Part shown: in pieces, positions 2,915 to 56,231 of the stretch
Layout: every line of letters starts with the position of its first letter
Numbering within the stretch: the first letter of the stretch is position 1
Assembly: GCA_004376055.2 (NCBI GenBank)
Contig: CP049016.1
Coordinates: 1,984,001 to 2,048,000 of the forward strand
From: Nitrospirales bacterium LBB_01
Lineage (GTDB): Bacteria; Nitrospirota; Thermodesulfovibrionia; Thermodesulfovibrionales; Magnetobacteriaceae
Direction: 5' to 3'
Length of the DNA: 64,000 nucleotides
Program-made: the position numbers and the translations under genes
Notes under the pieces: model-generated
Database searches by the model: none
What the model was told of the DNA's origin: nothing
Seen by the model: the letters and a program-made list of their open reading frames with translations, nothing else

Positions 2915-5182
2915 ATGATAAGAGAATTACCAATAAAAGCAGTACTTGCAATCTTTTTGATGCTCCTGCCGATAAGTGCGACCTTTGCACAAAACGCAGC
3001 AGATTCGGACAACAACGGCAACAGCATGGGAATACCAAATTTATCTGGTGAAATAACGATGACAGGCCAGACAAAATTTGAAAGCGGAAACATGTCAAAG
3101 TACAACGAATACAAAGACACAAATAAAACCAACTTTTTTGGCGATATTAAACTGAAGTATGACGACGACAAGTACTGGTTTTACCTTAAAGCGGAGGACA
3201 TTGGTTACGATACACAGCACTACAAACTTGAAGGTGGAATATATGGAATTGTCAAATATAACCTTGAGTATAACGAGATGCCGCACAATTACTCACTGGG
3301 CGACAGAACCATTTATTCAGGAGCGGGTTCCAACAACCTTACCACAATCTCTGGGTTTTCAAAAACTCCTCAATCCAGGTGGAACACTATTGACTACTCT
3401 ATTGACAGACAGCTTTATGGCGGCGGTGTAAGACTGGACGCTATAAAGCCATTTTATGTGGAGTTCTCTACAACCAGAGAGACAAGAAGTGGAACCAGGC
3501 CAATCTCTGTTACAAACAGCAACGGTTCAAGCGGGCCTGTGACGGAATTCCCACAGCCGATAGATTACATAACCGAGTCGGTTAAGGGCGAGGCAGGCTA
3601 CATTACAAGACCTCTTTTTGCCTCAGTATATCTTCAGTACACCGATTTCACCAACAACAATACAGAGATGTACTTCCAAAATATATATACCGGAAGCAGC
3701 ACTATACCAAACAGAGCTGGGCAGACTGACACTTTGACCCTGCCTCCAAATAATGAGAACTACAACTACGGATTTAAAGGCTCTGTTGCACTTCCTTTAA
3801 ACAGCAGATTAAATGTAAGCCTATCGGGAAGTGATACAACCTCTGATGCAAGATACCTAACCTCGTCAGTAATTGGTGCTACGACAACTGTTCGCAGCCC
3901 CATGTACAGTTACATCTACTCTAATGGGAACAGCAATTGGCATGGTAAAGTCGATACCCAAAATTACAGCTTCGTGCTGACAACTAACCCTATTTATGAT
4001 CTCAATGCAAGTGTTTTCTACAAGTATCGCAGCTTGCAAAACAAATCTGATAACCCGACAGCAACCTCGTCAACCGGTGATACAAACACCTATGTACCGG
4101 TTAGTTATAACAAAAGCGATACCGGGGTGGATCTTTCATACAGACTACCGACGCATTTTATACTCACCGGTGGTTATAATTATGTCATCACTCACAACTC
4201 TATAGACATAAATTATGGAGTGAATGGAGCTGTTGCAGATGGTGCTGAGCAGATGACTTATGACATCCCCACAACGACTGACAATATCTGGAATATTGGC
4301 GTGAAATGGGCAGGAGTTGATTTCATGTCTGCCAAAGTAGGATATGAGAGGATGAACAGAGACGGCTCTAATGACTCCTCGATATATGCAGCAGCAGATA
4401 GATTCGCTCAGTACAAAAACGAGTTTGACACAGGGTCGCAGAAAAGAGATAAGATTAAGGTAAGCGTAAATTTTTTCCCTATTGAGACTCTGGACATAGG
4501 ACTTGGTTACAATTATAAAAAATCAACGTATCCTGACACCGTTATCGGCCTAAGAGACAGCAGAAACGATGAGTATTATGTAGATGCCGGCTATACCTTT
4601 GGCAAAGTTGCAAGACTGAATGGATATCTTGCTTATGAAGATCTGAAAACATATCAGTTTATGCGCACTGCCAACACAACAGCAGGGAATGATCCTAACG
4701 GCACAACCCAAAACTCAACCAACTACAACTGGGATCTTACGCTGAGGGATAAGAGTTTTGACTATGGCGCAAATGTTGACTTCTACCTGGTTCCCAAAAA
4801 GGTAACGTTAAGAGTCCAGTATGACTCAGCGAGATCTGATGGAAGCGGCGACTTCACGATTTTAAATCAGGCGGCTCTTAATACGCTGGGTTCCTCAACT
4901 CCATCTCAAAACAATAGCAACATTGATATTTCAAATATTGACAACTACAGAAGAAACACGTTCCTTACCAAAATACTGTGGAACATTACAAAAAGTTTTA
5001 CGGTAGCACTTGGATACGCATACGAACACTACAAGTATGACGATTATGCTTACAACAACTACCCCTACACATACACAATTAAGGACTCAAGCGGCAATGT
5101 AACATACCTCACAGGTGCTTACTCAGACCCGTCATACAACGCAAGTCTTGCATTTCTGACATTGAAGTACAGTTTTAAATAG
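2915..5182 (+). CDS. MtrB/PioB-family decaheme-associated outer-membrane beta-barrel
   Basis: A 755-aa protein with a signal peptide (cleavage after about SATFAQ) and a long series of alternating, aromatic-rich amphipathic strands ending in a C-terminal ...LKYSFK. Such an ending (aromatic last residue, alternating hydrophobics) is the usual signal for insertion into the outer membrane. Length and position beside a decaheme cytochrome match the MtrB/PioB family, which sheathes an MtrA-like cytochrome to carry electrons across the outer membrane. No cysteine is seen in the protein, so the N-terminal CXXC known from Shewanella MtrB is absent. The start is the ATG at 2915 after AGGGGG; a TTG directly before it is an alternative. 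No extracellular MtrC-like cytochrome is encoded next to it. Confidence 0.8.
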   Translation: MIRELPIKAVLAIFLMLLPISATFAQNAADSDNNGNSMGIPNLSGEITMTGQTKFESGNMSKYNEYKDTNKTNFFGDIKLKYDDDKYWFYLKAEDIGYDTQHYKLEGGIYGIVKYNLEYNEMPHNYSLGDRTIYSGAGSNNLTTISGFSKTPQSRWNTIDYSIDRQLYGGGVRLDAIKPFYVEFSTTRETRSGTRPISVTNSNGSSGPVTEFPQPIDYITESVKGEAGYITRPLFASVYLQYTDFTNNNTEMYFQNIYTGSSTIPNRAGQTDTLTLPPNNENYNYGFKGSVALPLNSRLNVSLSGSDTTSDARYLTSSVIGATTTVRSPMYSYIYSNGNSNWHGKVDTQNYSFVLTTNPIYDLNASVFYKYRSLQNKSDNPTATSSTGDTNTYVPVSYNKSDTGVDLSYRLPTHFILTGGYNYVITHNSIDINYGVNGAVADGAEQMTYDIPTTTDNIWNIGVKWAGVDFMSAKVGYERMNRDGSNDSSIYAAADRFAQYKNEFDTGSQKRDKIKVSVNFFPIETLDIGLGYNYKKSTYPDTVIGLRDSRNDEYYVDAGYTFGKVARLNGYLAYEDLKTYQFMRTANTTAGNDPNGTTQNSTNYNWDLTLRDKSFDYGANVDFYLVPKKVTLRVQYDSARSDGSGDFTILNQAALNTLGSSTPSQNNSNIDISNIDNYRRNTFLTKILWNITKSFTVALGYAYEHYKYDDYAYNNYPYTYTIKDSSGNVTYLTGAYSDPSYNASLAFLTLKYSFK

Positions 5183-45411: not shown

Positions 45412-46683
45412 CTAAGCAAATATGTTTACCTTGCCGTTATCTGAGTAACTATAGCGTTTCACTGGTGTAACCTCCTCATCCTCTGGTAAATCCACCCGGG
45501 AAATCTTCTTATCAGCGGCTCCGGGCTGTTTTTTATACTCACCTTGGTTACCTTTGTCTTTTAATGAAACAGAGAAGTCCCCTACCGTTAAACCCTCTTG
45601 TGTTAAGGTTTTCACTATATCGTTTAGATTCTTTTCAATTATTGTCTTTGCTGCCTCAGTTGAGGCTCTTATGTCGGCATGAAGAGTGCCGTTTTCCATG
45701 TTTAAGTGTATTTTCACAGAGCCAAGACCCTCTGGCTCCAGCCTTACCTCTATTGAGCTGTCGCTAAGTTTGCTTACACTGAAGGTGTGCTCGTTTATTT
45801 GAACAGTTGTTTTGGGGACAGCGTTTTCGTTGTTTACGTCACGAGGCACTGCAGTGGGTGCTTTTTCTGCACCGAGGGCTTGTTGAGAACCCTGTGTGTC
45901 GTTAAACTCTACCACCTGTTCCTTGCCGGTTTTGGTATCAGCGGGTTTATCCTGCTTTTTTTCTCCGGTATTGTTATCTGTCTGAGATTGTACTACCTCT
46001 TTTATCTGTGTGTCACCGACATCAAATTTACCCACTTGTGGGTTAGTGTCTAACTTGTCTTTTGGTGCGTTAGCATCTAACATCTCTTTTGGTGCGTTAG
46101 CATCCGACTTTTCTTTTGGTGTGTTAGTCTTCGTATTATCCTTGAATAGATTTTCAATTGCTGCGTTCATTGCATCTGATGCCTGCGCTTTTTCCTCAGC
46201 AGCGCCGTCGTTTTTTGTGGCTGACTCCTTTAGAAGCTCTGCAGTATTGGCATCTGACACTGTCTTTTCAGCCGAACCTGTATCTTTATTGCTTTTATCA
46301 TCAGTGTTTTTATCGTCTTGTTTTGGTACATCTGCAGATTTTTTAATCTCTTTATCTCCATTAGGATTTAAAACAGCAGTTTTGCCAAGGGCTGTCATGT
46401 CTATGGGGGGAGCAGCTTTTTGGACTGAAACTGTTGCCGTATCAGCCGATGTTCCCTCAGGTGGATTTGTTGTGGGAGCAGCGCCGCCCAACATATTCAT
46501 TAAAAGCATAGAGGCTGCCACATTGCCTGCCAACTCTGTACTTTCCTTATCAACAAGTACCTTATTTAAAACCGATCCAAACTTACTCGGCGTATTGCCC
46601 ATACCATGAGGCACTCCCATTTGTGGTGCCTGCGATGCCTGACCTCCGGCTCCGAGTAAATTTGCTACATTTATGTCACTCAT
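45412..46683 (-). CDS. fliK: Flagellar hook-length control protein FliK
   Basis: About 423 aa. A long disordered, Lys/Asp/Asn-rich N-terminal ruler (about 20-300) with the small tandem units (N)AP KEKSDANAPKEMLDANAPKDK, and a C-terminal FliK domain with IEVRLEPEGLGSVKIHLN, GTLHADIRAS and LTQEGLTVGDFSVSL. The ruler sets hook length and the C domain switches export specificity. The ATG at 46683 (MSDINVANLLGAG) is preferred to one 24 bp upstream. A MITE-like element lies just upstream. Confidence 0.88.
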   Translation of the reverse strand: MSDINVANLLGAGGQASQAPQMGVPHGMGNTPSKFGSVLNKVLVDKESTELAGNVAASMLLMNMLGGAAPTTNPPEGTSADTATVSVQKAAPPIDMTALGKTAVLNPNGDKEIKKSADVPKQDDKNTDDKSNKDTGSAEKTVSDANTAELLKESATKNDGAAEEKAQASDAMNAAIENLFKDNTKTNTPKEKSDANAPKEMLDANAPKDKLDTNPQVGKFDVGDTQIKEVVQSQTDNNTGEKKQDKPADTKTGKEQVVEFNDTQGSQQALGAEKAPTAVPRDVNNENAVPKTTVQINEHTFSVSKLSDSSIEVRLEPEGLGSVKIHLNMENGTLHADIRASTEAAKTIIEKNLNDIVKTLTQEGLTVGDFSVSLKDKGNQGEYKKQPGAADKKISRVDLPEDEEVTPVKRYSYSDNGKVNIFA

Positions 46684-46732
46684 ACAACATGTAATAGCAA
46701 ATATCATACCAAACCGAATATGTAAGGATTAA

Positions 46733-46892
46733 TACCGAGTTGCTGCCAAAAAAGTAATAGGATGTAATGGTGGAGAAAAAGGACTGGATCCCGCAACAAG
46801 TGCGGGATGACAAAGGGGTGGTTACTATCTTGTCATTCCTGCGAAGGCAGGAATCCATGTCTTTTATTTATATCTTTGAGCATAACTTAGTA
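46733..46892. mobile_element. MITE-like element C inside the flagellar operon
   Basis: The left end TACCGAGTTGC (46733-46743) equals that of elements A and B. The right end GCATAACTTAGTA (46880-46892) is a diverged complement with a 2-bp insertion. Flanking triplets TAA and CAA differ by one base. The interior hairpins GGATCCCGCA...TGCGGGATGAC (about 46795-46811) and GTCATTCCTGCGAAGGCAGG... (46832 onward) repeat the head-to-head design. It separates the MotE-like gene from fliK. Confidence 0.65.
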
Positions 46893-46941
46893 CAAGAGAA
46901 ATGTTTTTAAGTATAACACTCAGACAGATGGGAAAAAGTTT

Positions 46942-49143: not shown

Positions 49144-49924
49144 CGTGTTCCCTCATATCCTCTATAATGTTATCCAGAAGCTCAAGCGGGTTAACAGAAG
49201 CCTCCTCAAGCGGGCCAATAACGACAACGCCCTCAAGAGGCAGTGCCGGATCAACTTCAAACAGTATCTCAGGGTTTAATTCGGTCAGTTCAGGTTTTTT
49301 GGATATAAACATATCGTAAAGCGCTGGGTTTAGCTTTATTGTTACAGCACCGGTCTTTTTAAGTCTGTTTATTCCTTCTTTGGTAAGCCTTATTAAAACC
49401 TCTGGGTTAATTTTAAGTTCTCCCAAAAGCGCAGCCTTTGCCACATCCAGAGTCAGTTGCACAACCTTTGGTTGAAGTGTGTTTAGTACCCCTTCTTTAA
49501 CATTACGGAGGTCCTCTATTATTTTAGCAAGTGCATCTAAAAGAGGCAGATTTTTTTGATTAAACTCCGCAATAGCTTGGTTTTTGCCAGCCTCAATTCC
49601 TTCGTTAAAACCATTTTCGTAACCTTGTTTTTGCGCCTCTTGTTCTAACTGCAGGGCAGTTTCCTGTGCTTCTCTGATGATTTCCTCAGGGGTTGGCGGT
49701 GGTTCCTCCGGCTCAGGAGCGGGTTGCTGCGGCTGAGGGCTGCTTAACTGATCTTCGGGAGCGCTCTCACCTTCAAGCGGTTCAGAGTCTTGTGCACTTT
49801 CTGAGGGTGTGTCATCAACAGCTGCCTCTCTCTCACTTTCTACATTATCGCTGTCTCTTCTATCTAAAGAGGGCATCAAAAATCGCTCAACGCTGATACC
49901 CTTTATGACCCCCGACCTATACAA
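49130..49924 (-). CDS. fliH: Flagellar assembly protein FliH
   Basis: 264 aa: a disordered acidic/Pro-rich N-terminus (about 15-90), a central helix with Ala/Gly-spaced repeats (YENGFNEGIEAGKNQAIAEF) and a C-terminal VATP-synthase-E-like domain. It binds FliI as a negative regulator and links it to the C-ring. It overlaps fliG by 8 bp and fliI by 14 bp. Confidence 0.9.
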   Translation of the reverse strand: MYRSGVIKGISVERFLMPSLDRRDSDNVESEREAAVDDTPSESAQDSEPLEGESAPEDQLSSPQPQQPAPEPEEPPPTPEEIIREAQETALQLEQEAQKQGYENGFNEGIEAGKNQAIAEFNQKNLPLLDALAKIIEDLRNVKEGVLNTLQPKVVQLTLDVAKAALLGELKINPEVLIRLTKEGINRLKKTGAVTIKLNPALYDMFISKKPELTELNPEILFEVDPALPLEGVVVIGPLEEASVNPLELLDNIIEDMREHDAGG

Positions 49925-50906
49925 GTTGTTCTTCCTCAGAGCTTCCGGGCAGGATTATCTTACCCTCTTCACTGAGTTTTCTGGCTATCTTAATTATATT
50001 CTGCTGAGACTTTTCAACCTCCGACACCCTCACAGGGCCCTTTGACTCCATCTCGTCTTTGAGTATCTCTGCTGCTCTCTTTGACATGTTCTTAAACACC
50101 TTCTCTTTAAGACCTTCTGAGGCGGTTTTAAGCGCAAGCGACAAGTCCTCTGTGCTGACCTCCTTAAGAACCATCTGAATACCCCTGTCATCAAGCCTCG
50201 TAAGGTCTTCAAATACAAACATGAACTGTCTTATAGCATCTGCTAGTTCGTAGTCATGACTTTCTATGTTTTCAAGAATCAGCTCCTCAGTTGCTTTATC
50301 TATTGAGTTTAGTATCTGAGCAACCTTTTTGACGCCTCCCACTTTTATTCCTTCTCCTCTGTCAAGGTCGAGTTCACTCTTAAGCACATCCTCTATCTCT
50401 TCTATGGCGTCCATTGGTATTCCCTCAGTTGTTGCCATTCGCATTGCCACGTCCACTTTTAACGACTTGGGCAGGGTTTGAAGCACAATTGCGGCCTGCC
50501 CAGGATCAAGTAAACTTAGAATCAGAGCTATAGTCTGGGGATGCTCGGTAAGAAGGAAATTGGTCAGCTTTTTAGCGTCCACTTTCTTTAGGTTATCAAG
50601 GGTAGCCTCAATAGCGGCTTTTTCCATTATTTTTTTGGCGGTTTTCTCATCAAGACCTTTGATTAACATATTTTTTACGTAATCGTTACCGCCCATGTAC
50701 ATTTCGCCCTTTTCTATCTTCTTAGAGGCCTCTTGAAAAACCGCCTTCACTTCATCTTCTTTCAGGGATTTTATTTTTGTCATCACACTGGCAATCTTAC
50801 CTATCTCTTTCATGTCGAGAGTTTTCATAATCTCGGCAGCGGCATCCTCGCCAATAGCGGTCAAAAATATTGCGGCTTTCTCAAAACCTGTCAATTGCAT
50901 TGCCAT
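49917..50906 (-). CDS. fliG: Flagellar motor switch protein FliG
   Basis: 329 aa. The N-terminal domain (about 5-100) binds FliF, the EHPQTIALILSLLDPGQAA motif marks the middle domain, and the C-terminal torque region includes FEDLTRLDDRGIQMVLKEVS and the charged residues that face MotA. Complete and of usual length. It lies directly after a 67-aa gene that repeats the FliF tail. Confidence 0.95.
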   Translation of the reverse strand: MAMQLTGFEKAAIFLTAIGEDAAAEIMKTLDMKEIGKIASVMTKIKSLKEDEVKAVFQEASKKIEKGEMYMGGNDYVKNMLIKGLDEKTAKKIMEKAAIEATLDNLKKVDAKKLTNFLLTEHPQTIALILSLLDPGQAAIVLQTLPKSLKVDVAMRMATTEGIPMDAIEEIEDVLKSELDLDRGEGIKVGGVKKVAQILNSIDKATEELILENIESHDYELADAIRQFMFVFEDLTRLDDRGIQMVLKEVSTEDLSLALKTASEGLKEKVFKNMSKRAAEILKDEMESKGPVRVSEVEKSQQNIIKIARKLSEEGKIILPGSSEEEQLV

Positions 50907-50909
50907 GCT

Positions 50910-51113
50910 CTATTTCTCCTCACTCTCCAACCACTGTCTTACTATTTTTGCTGCCTTAGCAGGATTATCTTTAATCCACTTAGACCAGTCAGCCAACTCC
51001 TCAGTCATCTTGAACTTATTTATGACAGGGACTTTAACTGCATCTTTACGCTCAATCGCAAACTTTATGTCTGCCAACTTAGCGCTTTTAGGAATTTTTC
51101 TATCTTCAGCCAT
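50910..51113 (-). CDS. 67-aa stand-alone paralog of the FliF C-terminal (FliG-binding) tail
   Basis: The C-terminal half ELADWSKWIKDNPAKAAKIV...WLESEEK is closely alike to the last residues of FliF in the next gene (DLNDWAKWVQDNPKQASQMV...WMEHEEA). The basic N-terminal half (MAEDRKIPKSAKLADIKFAI) has no counterpart in FliF and there is no membrane segment. It starts behind GAGGAGG, which is part of the fliF end, and stops 4 bp before fliG. FliF tail is the known docking site for the FliG N-domain. A soluble competitor, adaptor or assembly timer is inferred. An upstream in-frame start would add ten residues. Confidence 0.75.
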   Translation of the reverse strand: MAEDRKIPKSAKLADIKFAIERKDAVKVPVINKFKMTEELADWSKWIKDNPAKAAKIVRQWLESEEK

Positions 51114-51118
51114 ACTCT

Positions 51119-52756
51119 TTATGCCTCCTCGTGTTCCATCCACTCTTTTACCATCTGGGATGCCTGTTTGGGATTATCCTGTACCCACTTAGCCCAGTCG
51201 TTTAAGTCCTGCAATATACCTGGTTCCTCCTCTGGAGGCATTGACACATCTCTTTGTCTTTCAGGCTCAGCCGCTTTCTGCACTGGTTTTGCTTCTTTAT
51301 CTATAAGCTCAGGCATTGGTTTTAGCTTGGGCAATTCAGGCGTCGGAGGCGGCTCTGTCAAAGACTTTATAACTGGACGCACCACAAAAATTATAAACAA
51401 CAGCGCAAGCAATACCGGAGCCAAATACTTTGCAAGCATCACGCTGTCTTTGACATAATCGCGCTTTTCAGGTTCCTCCTTAGGAATCCCGCTAAATGCC
51501 ATGTTTATTACTGTCACCTCATCGCCGCGCTTTTCAATGAAGCCGATTGCCTTCTTTACCAAGTCTCCGTACTGTTTCAACTCAGCATCGGTTCTGGCTA
51601 CATATACCTGCTCAGGTTCGGTTTTCTTCTTGGCATTCTTGGCGTCTTTGGAATCTTTAGCAGCATCCTTCTTCTCTTTAAACACGCCGTCAACCAGCAC
51701 TGCTGCTGATATCCTTTTTATAGAACCATAGGGGCCTGTCACATGGCTTACCACTTTAGATATTTCGTAGTTTGTCGTTTCACTTTGTTTTTGAGTAGAG
51801 GTCTGCATTCCTGCGCCCGAAAGAGGGGTTTTACCGGGAAGGTTGGACTGAACTCCGGGAATTCCGCCTGGGCCTGTCGTTACCGATTTTTCCTTCATTG
51901 ACTGCTCACTGCGGACAACGGCTCCCTCAGGGTCATATTTTTCCTCTGTCTTTTCTATTTTTGCAAAATCCAGTTCAAGACTGACCCGTGCTTTGACCTT
52001 TTCCCGTCCAACAATGGGGCCAAGAATTTCACCAATCCGCTGCTGAAATTCTTTTTCCATCTTACGTTGATACTCAAGCTGTGTAGCGGTAAGACCTATC
52101 AACTCATCGGTTGGACGTGTAAGAAGCTCCCCCTGACTGTTTAGCACTGTGATGTTGTTTGGAATAAGACCCTCGACACTGCTTGACACAAGATGTACGA
52201 TACCCTGTACCTGTTCCTGAGTAAGCGCCTTCTTCTGTTTCAGACTCACTACGATTGAGGCTGTGGGCAGCTCTTTGTCTTTAACAAACAGAGATTTCTC
52301 GGGCACGGCAAGATGTACCTTTGCCTTATCTATTTCCTCCAGTGAGGCGATGGTTCTTGCCAGCTCGCCCTCAAGTGCCCTTCTGTAATTTAATTTTTGG
52401 ACAAAATCAGTGGCCTGAAAATCAGGTTTATCGAAAATCTCAAATCCAACGCCCGTGCCCTGAGGCAGCCCTGAAGTGGCAAGCTGAATCCTGAGTTCGT
52501 GGACTTTATCCTGCGGCACCATCACACTGTTTTGCGTGACCTTGTACGGAACTTTAAGGTCTTTGAGTTTAGCAACAATTTTACCAGCATCCTCGTCGGC
52601 TAAATTGGAAAACAAGACCTGATAGGGCACTTTCTGACTCCACGCAAACAACACTATGACAGCAGCCAGACCTAACACGAGAAATCCGGCCATAACGGCC
52701 TTCTTTTTATCCGGCCAATTTTTTACTTTGTCAACTAATAGTTTAATGTCAGCCAT
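51119..52756 (-). CDS. fliF: Flagellar MS-ring protein FliF
   Basis: 545 aa. Two transmembrane helices (about 18-38 and about 440-462) flank the periplasmic ring-building motifs (YQVLFSNLADEDAGKIVAKLK; RRALEGELARTIASL; KVHLAVPEKSLFV). The cytoplasmic tail ends in the FliG-binding DWAKWVQDNPKQASQMV. It is the base on which the basal body and export gate assemble. Canonical position between fliE and fliG. Confidence 0.96.
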   Translation of the reverse strand: MADIKLLVDKVKNWPDKKKAVMAGFLVLGLAAVIVLFAWSQKVPYQVLFSNLADEDAGKIVAKLKDLKVPYKVTQNSVMVPQDKVHELRIQLATSGLPQGTGVGFEIFDKPDFQATDFVQKLNYRRALEGELARTIASLEEIDKAKVHLAVPEKSLFVKDKELPTASIVVSLKQKKALTQEQVQGIVHLVSSSVEGLIPNNITVLNSQGELLTRPTDELIGLTATQLEYQRKMEKEFQQRIGEILGPIVGREKVKARVSLELDFAKIEKTEEKYDPEGAVVRSEQSMKEKSVTTGPGGIPGVQSNLPGKTPLSGAGMQTSTQKQSETTNYEISKVVSHVTGPYGSIKRISAAVLVDGVFKEKKDAAKDSKDAKNAKKKTEPEQVYVARTDAELKQYGDLVKKAIGFIEKRGDEVTVINMAFSGIPKEEPEKRDYVKDSVMLAKYLAPVLLALLFIIFVVRPVIKSLTEPPPTPELPKLKPMPELIDKEAKPVQKAAEPERQRDVSMPPEEEPGILQDLNDWAKWVQDNPKQASQMVKEWMEHEEA

Positions 52757-55729: not shown

Positions 55730-55966
55730 ATGAAGACCACTTTAAGAATAAGCGAAGATTTATCTGAAAGATTGAGTGCTTTGGCTAAATCTGAACATCA
55801 GTCGGAATCTTCTCTTGCATCTGAGGCAATTGAGGAGTTTTTAAATGTACGTCAATGGCATATTCAAGCAATCAGCGAGGGCATTGAGGCTGCAGACAGG
55901 GGCGGGGTTGTAAGTCATGAGGAGGCTGTAGCAGAGCTGAAAAAATGGGGTAATGCTGCATATTGA
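55730..55966 (+). CDS. Ribbon-helix-helix (CopG/ParD-like) antitoxin
   Basis: 78 aa. The N-terminal MKTTLRISEDLSERLSALAKSEHQSESSLASEAIEEFL is an RHH DNA-binding fold, and the C-terminal part VSHEEAVAELKKWG matches the toxin-binding tail of ParD-like antitoxins. It overlaps the ParE gene by 14 bp. GGAGGTGG precedes the ATG. Confidence 0.85.
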   Translation: MKTTLRISEDLSERLSALAKSEHQSESSLASEAIEEFLNVRQWHIQAISEGIEAADRGGVVSHEEAVAELKKWGNAAY

Positions 55967-56231
55967 GTGGACGTCCCTTGCGCTCAGGGACATTAGAGAT
56001 GCCGGAGAATTTATTGCCATGAATAACCGCAATGCAGCGGATTTAGTAGCGAAAAGAATAATAGATGCTGTAGAGTATTTGCGGGAATATCCAATGATAG
56101 GCCGGAGCGGGCGCGTTTTAGGAACAAGAGAACTTGTTATATCTGGAACACCGTTCATAGTAGTTTACCGTAAAAATGTTTCCGCTATTCAAATACTGAG
56201 AATTCTTCATCACGCCAGAAAGTGGCCTTAG
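55953..56231 (+). CDS. ParE/RelE-family toxin
   Basis: 92 aa with the ParE pattern: IEWTSLALRDIRDAGEFIAMNNRNAADLVAKRI, YLREYPMIGRSGRV, GTRELVISGTPFIVVYRK and ILRILHHARKWP. It is complete, unlike the remnant at 5.4-5.8 kb. ParE toxins poison gyrase; RelE cleaves mRNA; the two cannot be told apart here, although spacing with an RHH antitoxin favours ParE. Confidence 0.85.
   Translation: MLHIEWTSLALRDIRDAGEFIAMNNRNAADLVAKRIIDAVEYLREYPMIGRSGRVLGTRELVISGTPFIVVYRKNVSAIQILRILHHARKWP

Follow-up and report, generated by a model that had tools for sequence, protein, structure and literature searches.

A small gene between fliF and fliG

The window analysed here comprises 64,000 nucleotides of the genome of Nitrospirales bacterium LBB_01 (contig CP049016.1, positions 1,984,001 to 2,048,000), and the subject of this work is a small open reading frame (ORF) located within a run of flagellar genes on its minus strand. 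The order of these genes is flgB-flgC-fliE-fliF-[ORF]-fliG-fliH-fliI-fliJ, in which FliF and FliG were assigned by Pfam and the names flgB, flgC, fliE, fliH, fliI and fliJ are those we presume from gene order and sequence. As the preliminary description of this DNA had stated, the ORF (50910..51113, minus strand) lies between fliF and fliG and encodes a protein of 67 amino acids (aa), running from ATG to TAG. A 77-aa form beginning at the GTG at 51143 is disfavoured, since a good Shine-Dalgarno sequence precedes the ATG at 51113, which also agrees with the starts in relatives. The fliF gene (51119..52756, minus strand; 545 aa, with Pfam domains YscJ_FliF and YscJ_FliF_C and a match to TIGR00206) has its own tail complete. 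The product of fliG (49917..50906, minus strand; 329 aa, with Pfam domains FliG_N, FliG_M and FliG_C) is the presumed partner of the ORF protein, and fliG is the one FliG_N-bearing gene found in this genome, both matched stretches being inside it.

The last 29 residues of the ORF protein (50913..50999, minus strand) are identical in 14 of 29 positions to the C-terminal 29 residues of FliF (51122..51208, minus strand), which is the tail that docks to FliG_N according to PMC6079021 and PMC7355467, and which is the presumed parent of a duplication. The best ungapped score between the ORF protein and FliF was 118, whereas 300 shuffled versions of the ORF protein averaged 32.4 and reached at most 48. 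A search of the own genome (one contig of 3,273,455 bases) with the ORF protein returned only the ORF itself and the tail of FliF (expect value, E, 1.7e-8). The motif common to both proteins is DW-x-KW-x2-DNP-x2-A-x3-V-x2-W; the preliminary description had correctly recognized a repeat of the FliF C-terminus, but it placed the alanine one residue too late and allowed methionine where both proteins have valine. The tail-like segment is predicted to form two helices broken at the N-P pair, as judged from DSSP assignment at residues 37-49 and 51-67 in a full-length model of low confidence, and at residues 5-16 and 18-34 in a model of the tail together with FliG_N.

The preceding 38 residues (51000..51113, minus strand) form a variable linker that is unalignable between genera and has no transmembrane helix. 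Pfam and NCBIfam scans of the ORF protein gave nothing credible, and neither the ring-building YscJ_FliF domains nor transmembrane helices were found in it by Pfam and hydropathy, respectively. A resemblance of the linker to ribosomal protein L23 (phmmer E 0.44) was dismissed as chance, given that the linker cannot be aligned between genera. As judged from its sequence the ORF product is of the FliF-tail kind, and it would be a soluble, free-standing paralogue of the FliF C-terminal tail.

A Shine-Dalgarno sequence for the ORF, GAGGAGG (51124..51130, minus strand), is situated within the 3' end of fliF, and that of fliG, GAGGAG (50916..50921, minus strand), within the 3' end of the ORF, both read directly from the DNA. 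Among the 13 homologous copies that were aligned, 11 start between -1 and 7 nucleotides (nt) from the fliF stop codon, which suggests coupled translation; the remaining two, with distances of 47 and 102 nt, belong to the two loci of a single genome (G006). In genera g1 and g3 the ORF has its ribosome site within the final codons of fliF. The corresponding site for fliG is situated within the final codons of the ORF.

Occurrence and conservation among relatives

Homologues, which the preliminary description had proposed to seek in other genomes, do exist, and the absence of homologues from related flagellar operons, which it had counted among the grounds for refutation, is therefore not what was found. 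Judged from the retrievable fliF-fliG junctions, 12 of the 19 family genomes carry the same gene; they belong to three of the seven genera and hold 13 copies in total (two in one genome). It was found in all four genomes of genus g1 (G000-G003), all seven of genus g3 (G005, G011, G013 and G015-G018) and the single genome of genus g4 (G006). One of the carriers, Nitrospirae bacterium nDJH6bin1 (G003), is among the magnetotactic Nitrospirae listed in PMC8353452. The G006 bin (completeness 79, contamination 3) has two diverged fliF-ORF-fliG loci, on contigs C75 and C217, which may reflect two flagellar systems or the presence of two strains. The gene is missing from three genomes of genus g2 (G004, G010 and G012), in which fliF is close to fliG; from G007 (g5), in which fliF and fliG overlap; from G008 (g6), in which a 160-nt gap contains no tail-like ORF; and from G009 (g7), which has no fliF just upstream of fliG. 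The remaining genome, G014, is 56% complete and gave no match to FliG_N. Organisms of this group are mostly uncultured.

An initial search of 60 relatives found small frames beside a FliF tail in the own family only, and a profile built from the 13 copies, which also picks up FliF tails across the phylum, did not detect any additional free tail next to fliF among 230 genomes of the class, 395 genomes sampled from the phylum (the two samples overlap) or 398 Pseudomonadota, with the limit that it reports 87, 81 and 43 of these genomes, respectively, at the thresholds used, so that a divergent free tail could escape it. Weak matches to short frames occurred at G183:C20 (a 47-aa frame with an internal stop) and G255:C351 (a 194-aa frame), and G073, G094 and G096 each gave matches to longer frames (213-317 aa) that are presumably FliF fragments. 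The Pseudomonadota set gave eight weak frames of 22-110 aa (E 0.017-0.09), each the sole match in its genome (G609, G620, G640, G671, G673, G688, G712 and G789). A match in Methylobrevis was rejected as chance because it lies inside a 359-aa frame that is not a flagellar gene and that we take, from its sequence, to be a glycine-betaine-type binding protein.

Alignment of the 13 free tails revealed that the pattern W-x-K-W-x-K-x2-P-x2-A-x6-W is invariant in all of them, and eight columns (M1, W43, K45, W46, K48, P51, A54 and W61) are invariant over the whole proteins. Linkers vary freely in length, the proteins measuring 49-98 aa, and none of the 13 has a transmembrane segment (maximum 19-residue Kyte-Doolittle value 0.52, compared with 2.67 for the second transmembrane helix, TM2, of FliF). 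For the 22-codon tail, the synonymous proportion of differences exceeded the nonsynonymous one in 22 of 28 within-genus pairs, which are not independent of one another; the reverse was seen in five pairs and no difference in one. The pattern of selection on the free tail is thus mostly purifying. The lysine of the WxKW motif, present in 13 of 13 free tails and in 3 of the 17 FliF tails compared, is a sign that the free copies went their own way.

The origin of the gene by duplication of the FliF tail, as the preliminary description had suggested, is well supported by the likeness in every copy and by the position directly downstream of fliF. Furthermore, in G006 the likeness to FliF runs further upstream, through a PLPP segment, and this extension is a trace of the duplication. 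Mean identity is 44-50% between free tails of different genera and 53-67% between a free tail and the FliF tail of its own genus, and a FliG tree did not resolve the relation of g1, g2, g3, g4 and g6. One ancestral duplication followed by partial co-evolution and losses, or several separate duplications, would both fit these sequences.

Two of the genomes that lack the inserted ORF, G009 and G007, each encode a separate protein that combines one hydrophobic segment with a FliF-like tail. The G009 protein (100 aa; G009:C3:12323-12622, minus strand; L103 reverse complement 3379-3681) has the layout of the last transmembrane helix of FliF followed by the tail. It matched TM2 plus tail of FliF proteins from other genomes over nearly its full length (E down to 3.9e-13) and positions 455-553 of the TIGR00206 FliF model (E 2.8e-7). 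Its gene adjoins what is presumably a phoU-like gene, no flagellar genes were linked to it in the 7 kb read, and the same genome also carries a full FliF-like frame (C77). The G007 protein (122 aa; G007:C31; L104 reverse complement 3940-4308), encoded after a gene that we take to be aspS-like, was recognized by a match to the tail (E 0.0096) and by alignment, and it had no NCBIfam match.

Frames that read MDSCLRRNDK / WIPAFATMT, presumably a short interspersed palindromic repeat, are located in the window at 46676-46910 and in one G006 locus (L035) at approximately 2280-2380; one copy stands between fliF and the free tail of G006b. On the plus strand of the window, at 55730-56231, two small genes of 78 and 92 aa are adjacent, which we assume to be a ribbon-helix-helix antitoxin and a RelE/ParE-type toxin, respectively.

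Possible role of the free tail on FliG

According to PMC6079021 and PMC7355467, FliG_N changes conformation and co-folds 1:1 with the FliF tail into a fold resembling FliG_M. The tail of the ORF protein and FliG_N of the window were modelled as one chain of 141 residues, with TAG read as Gln and two aligned sequences, those of the window and of G003, as input. The mean predicted local distance difference test score (pLDDT) was 67.2, with approximately 79-85 in the tail blocks, and the predicted template modelling score (pTM) was 0.64. Comparison by VIA-align superimposed the model, including the tail, on the FliG middle domain 4fq0_C (Z 8.0, root-mean-square deviation (rmsd) 2.0, 79 residues of the 80-residue chain, model residues 6..101) and on the FliG middle domain 4qrm_B (Z 8.2, rmsd 2.0, 74 residues, model residues 16..106), and Foldseek ranked the FliF:FliG complexes 5wuj and 5tdy first, with E 0.38-0.42 and a large rmsd. 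The model thus agrees, with low-to-moderate confidence, with a free tail docked in the groove otherwise used by FliF, within a FliG_M-like module. In searches against solved structures, the profile of free tails returned no flagellar entry (best E 0.41) and the C-terminal 93 residues of the window FliF no match up to E 10. Binding of the ORF protein to FliG is plausible from this model and by analogy with the FliF tail; the competition with the MS ring or control of stoichiometry that the preliminary description proposed would be putative consequences.

The reading that we tentatively favour, with a probability somewhat short of even, is that the soluble paralogue occupies FliG_N as a placeholder or chaperone until FliF tails of the membrane/supramembrane (MS) ring replace it. 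The ORF would be translated from a presumably shared fliF-fliG mRNA, between both partners, so that its protein would be available during FliG synthesis. With two short helices it would complete the N-terminal domain of FliG, as the FliF tail does in the split-domain co-fold, and FliG newly released into the cytosol would thereby stay folded with its docking groove filled. Displacement would come from FliF tails clustered in an MS ring, and assembly of the FliG ring would in this way be biased to MS rings. Binding in the cell, displacement by FliF and the effect on folding or timing are what we infer from the gene layout.

Several findings weigh against this proposal. Six FliG-bearing genomes of the family (G004, G007, G008, G009, G010 and G012) lack the ORF, and it therefore cannot be a requirement for all flagella in this family. 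Between genera, free tails resemble one another no more closely than they resemble the FliF tails of their respective genera, and a single origin is thus not proved. As for the structural model, a single-chain construct favours contact, the input held two aligned sequences, the modelling covered the free tail alone, and 35 of the 141 residues have pLDDT below 50. The best Foldseek values against the Protein Data Bank are those given above, the VIA-align Z scores fall in a range common for helical models, and the full-length model of tail and FliG (pLDDT 44.7) was too poor for use.

The chief competitors of this reading are a lasting rotor part and a decoy inhibitor. The free tail could be a structural part of the rotor that stays in the finished cytoplasmic (C) ring on those FliG_N domains that have no FliF, so that FliG may outnumber FliF, or it could be an assembly factor; in either case FliG would be uncoupled from the number of FliF subunits by completion of FliG_N in trans. 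A free tail would be the simplest way to uncouple the two, and fliF, the ORF and fliG follow one another head to tail, their ribosome sites overlapping with the preceding gene. FliF must nevertheless transmit the torque, and a FliG_N that is unattached would carry none; in addition, no motor structure from this bacterial group was found in the literature searched. We consider this explanation unlikely, if still worth some weight. The anchored tail proteins of G007 and G009 would, if it holds, answer the same need in another way, and the C-ring of these Nitrospirota, which include at least one published magnetotactic genome, could be larger than the MS ring or assembled ahead of it. The same two anchored proteins would also fit a repeated use of tails as decoys, in which the ORF protein would be a negative regulator that sequesters FliG and so restricts how many flagella are formed, or when. 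A complete tail without membrane anchor should indeed compete with FliF for the same groove, but a response to a signal of its own is hardly expected from a gene placed in one run with FliF and FliG, and a decoy inhibitor appears unlikely.

It is rather improbable that the ORF is a functionless vestige of the duplication or that it matters only for coupling the translation of fliG to that of fliF. Several relatives do without it, G008 having nothing more than its short gap, and the N-terminal part is free to change; nevertheless, the Trp, Lys, Pro and Ala positions are invariant across three genera and the tail evolves in the mostly purifying pattern described above. A FliF-like peptide would not be conserved for the sake of coupling alone, and in the g2 and g5 genomes fliF adjoins fliG with no such ORF between them. 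A tail that forms part of a larger protein, either by read-through into FliG or by a frameshift that gives FliF an exchanged or second tail, was rejected as very improbable because the frames are not conserved. In the source genome the ORF shares the reading frame of fliG, with TAG-AGC alone between them, but no more than 8 of the 13 copies keep such a frame (of 12 measured gaps, 8 are in frame and 4 are out, and the copy G006a is out by its ORF frames). The stop codons TAG, TAA and TGA are all found, the frame relative to fliF differs between species, and every gene has its own Shine-Dalgarno-like sequence, so that fusions are largely refuted.

Comparison with known systems

The 1:1 pairing of the FliF tail with FliG_N is regarded as the reason why the MS and C rings match in symmetry. 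A natural, conserved and unanchored tail, encoded next to both of its partners, would be a ready tool for asking whether FliG_N can fold by itself, whether the loading of FliG can proceed in two stages and whether the size of a ring can be made independent of the number of FliF subunits. The literature searched contained no account of a FliF tail that stands alone or of a paralogue of that tail, and as a separate soluble protein the ORF product matches no system described there. Its closest counterpart is the FliF tail itself in the FliF:FliG_N split domain (5TDY, 5WUJ), with which it shares the motif, the predicted helices broken at N-P and a gene beside fliG; the model, of low-to-moderate confidence, would place it in the same kind of FliG_M-like module. 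In contrast to that tail, it is a separate soluble polypeptide without anchor or ring-building domains, made in addition to the full tail of FliF, and the WxKW lysine is a fixed feature of its copies and an infrequent one of FliF tails.

Small accessory proteins at the FliF-FliG junction have a precedent in FlgV of the Campylobacterota, a lineage-specific protein with a role in motor assembly and motility, as described in PMC10655999. There, FlgV has transmembrane helices with GFFxG and forms a ring of its own, whereas the ORF protein has neither a transmembrane helix nor GFF and is a copy of the FliF tail. Another cytosolic protein, FlhF, engages FliG ahead of C-ring assembly and governs the step that follows; according to PMC11236974 it binds the M and C domains of FliG and leaves FliF binding possible, whereas the ORF protein, for which no similarity to FlhF is claimed, would be expected on FliG_N itself. 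Finally, full-frame fusions of FliF and FliG still assemble rings, as reported in PMC6079021, and the two proteins can thus be linked in another way; those are fusion proteins, whereas the ORF found here encodes a separate, natural tail protein.
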